Source: Mesotoga sp. Brook.08.105.5.1
GTDB lineage: Bacteria; Thermotogota; Thermotogae; Petrotogales; Kosmotogaceae
Direction of reading: 5' to 3'
NCBI RefSeq assembly: GCF_002752635.1
Contig: NZ_AYTW01000007.1
Location: 1-64,000 of the forward strand
Length of the DNA: 64,000 bases
A program made the position numbers and the translations under genes. Under the pieces are notes generated by a model. That model ran no database searches and was not told where the DNA came from. It saw only the letters and a list, made by a program, of their open reading frames with translations. The first letter of the stretch is position 1, and every line of letters starts with the position of its first letter. Below are positions 1 to 698 of this stretch, piece after piece.

Positions 1-364
1 AAGACAGGACAAATACCACTTGTCAATAAAAAGCTGGAAGGAAAACTGGGAATCTCTCTCAACCTTCTTTCAATATCCAGAGGAACTGAGAAGATTGGTT
101 TATACAACTAATCCCATTGAATCAGTTAATAGACAACTGAGGAAGGTAACGAAGAATAAGGGAGTCTTTCCTACGGATACTTCTCTCTTAAAGATGGCTT
201 ATCTAGCAATAATAAATATAACAAAGAAATGGACAGTAAGAACCCTTGAATGGTCAAAGATCCTTACTCAACTTGTGATAAAGTATGAAAGATTAGCTAA
301 GTACATAAGCTGATTCTTAAACCCATTACAAAAAAGGGGTTTACACAAAAAAAGAGACAGAACC
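1..364 (+). mobile_element. Right part of an IS256-family insertion sequence
   Basis: The window opens inside a transposase gene, and the element appears to end shortly after it. Downstream of the stop at 311-313 is an AT-rich stretch, then GGTTTACACAAAAAAAGAG from about 338, which looks like the terminal inverted repeat of IS256-type elements. The exact right boundary, near 360-364, is inferred. The left end lies outside the window, so neither the partner repeat nor a target duplication can be checked. Confidence 0.6.
2..313 (+). CDS. IS256-family transposase, C-terminal part (partial)
   Basis: This is the C-terminal 103 residues of a mutator-type (IS256) DDE transposase, the enzyme that cuts and moves its own element. 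The frame is open to the window edge; an internal TTG at 20 is not the true start, because the codons before it read on as RQDKYH in the way the family does. The segments KSWKENWESLSTFF and YTTNPIESVNRQLRK are the family's conserved end, and the latter contains the Glu expected to complete the DDE triad. The frame has no stop or shift in the visible part. Whether the full element is intact cannot be judged. Confidence 0.85.
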   Translation, partial: RQDKYHLSIKSWKENWESLSTFFQYPEELRRLVYTTNPIESVNRQLRKVTKNKGVFPTDTSLLKMAYLAIINITKKWTVRTLEWSKILTQLVIKYERLAKYIS

Positions 365-385
365 TGCACGGGATCTGCTCTTCCT

Positions 386-455
386 AACCAAGTCTCGATA
401 ACCCGCTTCTATCAACCCGATCTTTCTAACCCGCACTTAGTAACCCGTTCCTAGA
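386..455. repeat. 14-bp tandem repeat, five units (AACCCG plus 8 variable bases)
   Basis: Five consecutive units of exactly 14 bases start at 386, 400, 414, 428 and 442. Each begins AACC; four begin AACCCG, and the first reads AACCAA. The remaining eight bases differ between units but are pyrimidine-rich. A possible outlying unit, AACCTGCACGGGAT, lies at 361-374, out of phase by 11 bases. There is no open reading frame of note. The run ends just before the hairpin array. Confidence 0.75.
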
Positions 456-469
456 CTAGGCTCTTCCGG

Positions 470-666
470 CCGGCGCAAGCCGGACTGGCCTGCGCAGCAG
501 ACTGGCCTTTGCGAAGAAAAGACTGGCCACCGAAGGTGACTGGCATTTATTTCCCTCCTGCGCAGCAGCATCACTTCCCCGGATGCTCCTCCGGGCATCA
601 CTTCCTGGGATGTACTTCCCAGCCTCACTTCCCGACGAAGTCGGCCTCGCCTCCTGCCGAAGGCAG
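470..666. repeat. Array of nine mini-hairpins with conserved linkers
   Basis: Nine short inverted repeats follow one another: 470-483 (CCGGC/GCCGG, loop GCAA), 490-500 (CTGC/GCAG), 507-516 (weak, CTT/AAG), 528-538 (CACC/GGTG, loop GAA), 558-568 (CTGC/GCAG), 578-595 (CCCGGA/TCCGGG), 605-622 (CTGGGA/TCCCAG), 632-644 (CCGAC/GTCGG, loop GAA) and 654-666 (CTGCC/GGCAG, loop GAA). The linkers are conserved: ACTGGC at 484, 501, 522 and 539, then CATCACTT at 569 and 596, CCTCACTT at 623 and CCTCGCCT at 645. Stem sequences differ but pairing is kept. No function is known to me. Weak reading frames across it on both strands look accidental. Confidence 0.8.
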
Positions 667-698
667 CATTGTGTCTTCCAACTGCTGTCTCACATGCA

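Follow-up and report, generated by a model that had tools for sequence, protein, structure and literature searches.

Covarying mini-hairpin arrays with constant linkers in Mesotoga, a probable genus-specific variety of mosaic extragenic palindromes

Positions 470-666 of a contig of Mesotoga sp. Brook.08.105.5.1 (NZ_AYTW01000007.1; 'the window' is the whole stretch analysed, positions 1 to 64,000 of its forward strand) carry nine short stem-loops whose stems differ in sequence and yet pair, and the locus thereby raises the question of what kind of element this is and what keeps its stems paired. An earlier note, made from the sequence alone, had described nine stem-loops at steps of 17-30 bases, and this description holds: the hairpins start at 470, 490, 507, 528, 558, 578, 605, 632 and 654, with the same spacing of 17-30 bases between successive starts, and together they form 43 stem base pairs, against 14.5 +/- 6.3 (maximum 34) in dinucleotide shuffles, none of 500 of which reached 43. 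Under a stricter scoring that admits only stems of at least 5 bp, the stretch is the highest among the 197-base stretches sampled in the window, and single shuffles can match it. Between the hairpins stand ACTGGC four times (484, 501, 522 and 539), CATCACTT twice (569 and 596), CCTCACTT (623) and CCTCGCCT (645). The features of the locus are as follows.

361..376, + strand: right half of a CGTC/TGTC-tagged palindrome, the start of the composite (from comparison with L026 and L027)
400..447, + strand: direct repeats of AACCCG plus 8 variable bases, the first block of the composite
470..483, + strand: cap hairpin of the ACTGGC block, CCGGC-GCAA-GCCGG
484..544, + strand: block A, four ACTGGC linkers and three hairpins
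490-500, + strand: block A hairpin CTGC-GCA-GCAG
507-521, + strand: block A hairpin, damaged, CTTTGC-GAA-GAAAAG
528-538, + strand: block A hairpin CACC-GAA-GGTG
545..568, + strand: spacer and block B cap hairpin (558-568, CTGC-GCA-GCAG)
569..644, + strand: block B, linkers CATCACTT (569, 596) and CCTCACTT (623) and three hairpins
577-595, + strand: block B hairpin CCCGGA-TGCTCC-TCCGGG
604-622, + strand: block B hairpin CTGGGA-TGTACT-TCCCAG
631-644, + strand: block B hairpin CCGAC-GAA-GTCGG
645..666, + strand: variant linker CCTCGCCT and final hairpin CTGCC-GAA-GGCAG (653-666)

The stems do not 'always' pair, as had been claimed, since the hairpin at 507-521 reads CTTTGC-GAA-GAAAAG here and CTTTGC-GAA-GCAAAG in relatives. 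The folding energy of the whole stretch is ordinary (z of -0.32 for RNA and -1.0 for DNA of the plus strand, and -1.7 for RNA of the minus strand) and the signal therefore lies in the local, repeated hairpins.

The composite that contains the array reaches to the left of 470, for the AACCCG units at 400-447 belong to it, and a TGTC-ATCCCG hairpin of the CGTC-REP kind often heads such composites. The palindrome at 361-376 is intact in the relatives compared (L026 and L027), where it reads GTCATCCCGTGATGCACCTGCACGGGATCT, and here it has apparently been cut by the insertion sequence on its left side. Within window positions 2-376, directly left of the array, a transposase gene of the Mutator family (IS256-like, PF00872) comes to its 3' end; the contig begins inside this element, and the sequence after the gene resembles an insertion sequence end lying within the TGTC-ATCCCG palindrome, of which only the right half is present. 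Runs of AACCCG with a period of 14 bases, the other 8 being variable, occur in many intergenic regions (window 400-447; L026, L027, L035 and L126), further short-word blocks near them are repeated across genomes (ACCCCCGACC, CAGCGTTCAGCG, AACTTGCAACT and GGAGAACCGTTGACGG), and a long palindrome, GGGCGAACGGCCGTTCGCCCCTACA, lies upstream of many composites (L126 3521-4760; L134 6141-8720).

Searching with window positions 360-680 as the query, we found 68 matching places in the organism's own genome; arrays are present in 8 of 10 Mesotoga genomes, where they are intergenic and dispersed. A strict linker-spacer-linker pattern of the ACTGGC type gave 41 matches in the own genome (G000), 31 in G001, 26 in G002, 52 in G004, 77 in G009, 11 in G005, 5 in G008 and 6 in G006, of which five are hairpins; G007 gave only 2 matches, neither a hairpin, and G003 none. 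The corresponding TCACTT-type counts are 41 (G000), 41 (G001), 15 (G002), 19 (G004), 59 (G009), 4 (G005) and 8 (G008), with one non-hairpin match in G006 and none in G007 or G003, and over 93 other Thermotogota genomes this pattern stands at chance (11 matches against 15 for a reversed control). Arrays also lie on a 3.2-kb contig of a genome of a different genus (G010), a contig that is possibly misbinned, and the named records that carry arrays are those of Mesotoga sp. and a Kosmotogaceae bin. Two contigs binned as Bacteroidales (L075) and Acidobacteriota (L077) hold Mesotoga arrays within near-identical Mesotoga flanks and are probably misbinned Mesotoga contigs. Other matches outside the genus (L067, L068, L070-L074, L079 and L081) were rejected as unrelated repeats or lone matches, that in a Treponema record (L080) as a small separate tandem repeat, and viral contigs gave no array matches. 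Within G001, array positions near 1.82 Mb are repeated near 1.90 Mb at a distance of exactly 76,303 bases, which hints at a duplication of 76 kb.

From the fetched loci we extracted 495 linker-delimited units in 146 chains. The linkers are constant, of 6-8 bases, and define three kinds of block, namely A (ACTGGC), B (CATCACTT or CCTCACTT) and C (CCTTGCGT or CATTGCGA), each of which opens with a cap hairpin; the commonest order is a run of AACCCG-N8, followed by block A and then by C and B, either of which may come first, with all units of an array on one strand. The order of units is conserved within blocks A (CTCGCC, CTTTGC, CAGGC or CACC, CTGC) and B (CCCGGA, CTCGC, CTGCC), from which it follows that the hairpins are a limited, reused set rather than randomly written, and that many copies are not independent, so that counts of them overstate the sampling.

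The stems of the arrays, which are of 4-7 bp and mostly begin with C, covary. In the set of 85 distinct 19-nt units, Watson-Crick pairs fill 90% of the stem positions and 50 stems have no mismatch; permuting the 3' arms among these units reduces this to 65% paired with 14.7 perfect stems (maximum 25), and sliding the register by 1-3 bases leaves 16-44% paired and no perfect stem. Most other size classes agree, the 11- and 15-nt classes (12 and 19 distinct units) being too few to exceed every permutation. Perfect stems can be chained by single compensated pairs, as in CTGGGA, CTGGCA and CTGGCG or in CCGGGA and CTGGGA. At one orthologous site, adjoining a gene that reads as FAD-oxidase-like (an identity given by reading only), the cap stem is CTGGTGC/GCGCCAG in L069, with a T-G pair, and CTGGTGC/GCACCAG in L077, with T-A, the usual form being CTGGCGC/GCGCCAG, with C-G. 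In the divergent species G006 the linker and loops are kept and the stems are other. Imperfect stems make up 80 of 217 distinct units, and the persistence of many single mismatches implies that pairing is not strictly enforced. Near-constant linkers with compensating stems, as the earlier note had proposed, are thus real and recur in related genomes; neither of the findings that it named as fatal was made, since paired copies do recur in relatives and stems do exceed the shuffled level.

The loops are more uniform than the stems. Triloops take the form cGNAg in 123 of 139 cases and tetraloops cGNNAg in 49 of 53, 47 of those 49 having a pyrimidine as the third base; when only distinct units are counted the figures are 38/51 and 11/13. 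The array-free genome G007, over 400 kb, gives 57/753 and 50/821 by comparison. The remaining class of units has loops of 6-7 bases around YGNTYYT. Loops of the cGNAg form occur in RNA too, and the stable tetraloop rule of RNA, GNRA, calls for a purine in third place. In DNA, GNA and GNNA loops on a closing G-C pair give mini-hairpins that are extraordinarily heat-stable and nuclease-resistant (PMC4686876). The d(GCGNAGC) mini-hairpins of that work share with the arrays both the loop and the closing C-G pair, the difference being that they are a chemical motif and not a genomic family. Because most triloops and tetraloops are cGNAg or cGNNAg, we suggest that the hairpins would form when the array strand is present as single-stranded DNA; the array loops thus point to DNA, the tetraloop part of this resting on two stem families.

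The arrays turn over. The array of the window lies upstream of a PAF-acetylhydrolase-like gene (783-1961), and at the orthologous site G009, G008 and G002 carry different units, of the C type, G009 and G008 sharing the 3' boundary of the window's array, while G001 and G005, whose genes here are ~70% identical, carry no array. Elsewhere, G001 and G009 hold 1020 and 172 bp of array, respectively, between flanks that are 98.6% and 93% identical, and at the FAD-oxidase-like gene site L077 has a B block that is missing from G001. Orthologous sites with different units or none indicate that blocks turn over quickly. We found no cleanly empty site bearing a target duplication of the kind that a MITE would leave; the near-empty site beside the oxidase-like gene lacks recognised clean ends or duplication.

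We consider it reasonably probable that these are genus-specific, mosaic arrays of extragenic palindromes, REP/BIME-like in kind, that fold in single-stranded DNA and whose stems are kept paired by template switching, by selection or by both. The hairpins would fold while the array strand is single-stranded DNA during replication or repair, and template switching within imperfect palindromes would then copy one arm onto the other and keep the stems paired, with selection for folding possibly helping. Template switching is known to be able to create and maintain hairpin stems (PMC8794818), and such mutation could produce the change of stems with pairing kept, orthologous intermediates included, that is seen here. 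The arrays may spread and turn over as blocks when dispersed copies recombine or exchange by template switching or, alternatively, through a putative single-strand nuclease other than a RAYT; a host function would not be required, and the majority of copies may be neutral or selfish. Hairpin folding, arm copying and block spreading are steps that we infer from sequence comparison rather than from direct observation. The suggestion that a mechanism writes new hairpins survives in part: the limited, reused set and its conserved order speak against it, and the change of stems with pairing kept speaks for it. As an extension to which we give only a small chance, the linkers and DNA-type loops may be read by a putative protein acting on single-stranded DNA, separate from RAYT and IS200-IS605, that moves or rewrites the hairpin units; such reading of linkers and loops would leave the stems free to diversify.

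Several other explanations have to be weighed against this one. Tandem hairpins with covarying stems and constant loops and linkers might be a structured non-coding RNA or an mRNA element, bound by an RNA-binding protein or a ribonuclease, and GNA loops are formed by RNA as well. We nevertheless regard this as unlikely. The direction of arrays relative to the flanking genes, taken from a crude open-reading-frame caller, is random (-/- 21, +/- 17, +/+ 16, -/+ 13); single mismatches, at 18 G-T against 12 A-C, show no clear surplus of wobble pairs, whichever strand is taken, which is more in keeping with a process in DNA than with selection acting on RNA; the tetraloops follow GNNA with a pyrimidine third and not GNRA; Rfam covariance models found three tRNAs only in the 64-kb window and gave no match to the array; the array has neither a promoter-like match nor a convincing terminator; and its folding energy, as given above, is ordinary. 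Random direction, the lack of a clear G-T excess and the lack of an Rfam match together disfavour RNA, so that of the earlier alternative 'structured RNA or single-stranded DNA' the single-stranded nucleic acid stands, with the loops pointing to DNA, and the RNA, which the GNNA tetraloops also disfavour, is less well supported. Ordinary decaying tandem repeats with no structural constraint would explain units in tandem with fixed linkers, part of which Tandem Repeats Finder detects, but differing stems still pair, and permuted arms and slid registers lose that pairing; this covariation refutes the explanation, to which we attach hardly any probability.

Two candidates remain. Classical REP/BIME palindromes, moved on single-stranded DNA by a RAYT-type Y1 (HUH) transposase, resemble the arrays in being high-copy, extragenic, palindromic and mosaic, and RAYTs have been proposed as the builders of such arrays elsewhere (PMC2817692). 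However, PF01797 is absent from the array-rich, two-contig genome G001 and from G002, G005 and G008, and is present in the array-free G007, a distribution that does not follow the arrays and so disfavours a RAYT; there is also no GTAG head, and the units keep a single orientation rather than alternating. The idea, already weakened, seems to us rather improbable, a past RAYT, since lost, being the form in which it might hold. For the Y2 transposase PF04986 there was no match in the genomes searched, and its control also matched nowhere. Improbable to a greater degree are attC-like recombination sites, by which arrays would separate exchangeable accessory genes such as toxin-antitoxin pairs. In the densest G001 region (1.20-1.29 Mb) arrays do lie between small gene pairs that look by eye like toxin-antitoxin genes, and content differs between G001 and G009, but no shared partner emerges from the gene families adjoining arrays, which are little different from control genes, and the arrays themselves turn over, not the genes alone. 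One candidate partner, the PF05635 four-helix protein (4 of 136 array-neighbour genes), was rejected, being absent from the array-bearing G002 and G005; paralogues of this 23S rRNA intervening-sequence protein number 20 in the own genome, 10 in G009 and 5 each in G001 and G004. Sampled arrays of G001 lie on the minus strand in 23 of 32 cases before 1.5 Mb and on the plus strand in 15 of 15 after 2.0 Mb; dnaA lies at 1.1 kb and the skew defines no clear replichores, and since the arrays are also clustered and not independent we treat this asymmetry as a lead only.

Returning to mosaic palindromes folding in single-stranded DNA, the arrays look like a new variety of a known kind. With REP/BIME (GTAG, RAYTs) they share short extragenic palindromes, high copy number, mosaic clusters and variability between strains, and in REP/BIME, too, pairing is kept through complementary changes (PMC2817692); they differ in their many exchangeable stems, constant linker and loop, one-way units, linkers (ACTGGC/TCACTT/TTGCGT), and lack of a GTAG/GGAG head and of a link to a Y1 transposase. 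The CGTC REPs, whose family CGTC-3 occurs in M. prima and Kosmotoga olearia without a dedicated transposase (PMC3733652), share the genus and the same intergenic spaces, but have stems of 8-9 bp starting AT, a CGTC tag and mostly head-to-head dimers, where the arrays have stems of 4-7 bp, other linkers and tandem direct order. The defining features of both groups were looked for in the arrays and are lacking, which sets the arrays apart from each. RepRanger reports 1,814 REP-like palindromes in M. prima, and the present arrays are not described in the parts of that source examined (PMC12306157). The TAACTGA direct repeats of Beggiatoaceae, short words in many intergenic regions (PMC4679880), resemble the AACCCG block; unlike the arrays, they have no covarying hairpin stems and lie mostly just upstream of start codons. 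CRISPR arrays have direct repeats of ~23-50 bp and unique spacers, whereas the repeats here measure 6-8 nt, with hairpins that are used again and again in place of spacers. The earlier statement that no named element has this form is accordingly borne out as to names, none having been found in the literature searched, and needs qualifying as to kind, REP/BIME mosaics being close.

The arrays constitute a REP-like family without the usual transposase, and they display extra-stable DNA mini-hairpin loops on a genome-wide scale. With hundreds of stems, close relatives and orthologous sites, they also offer a natural experiment on how stems change while pairing is kept, one in which maintenance by template switching can be tested in bacteria against selection for folding.
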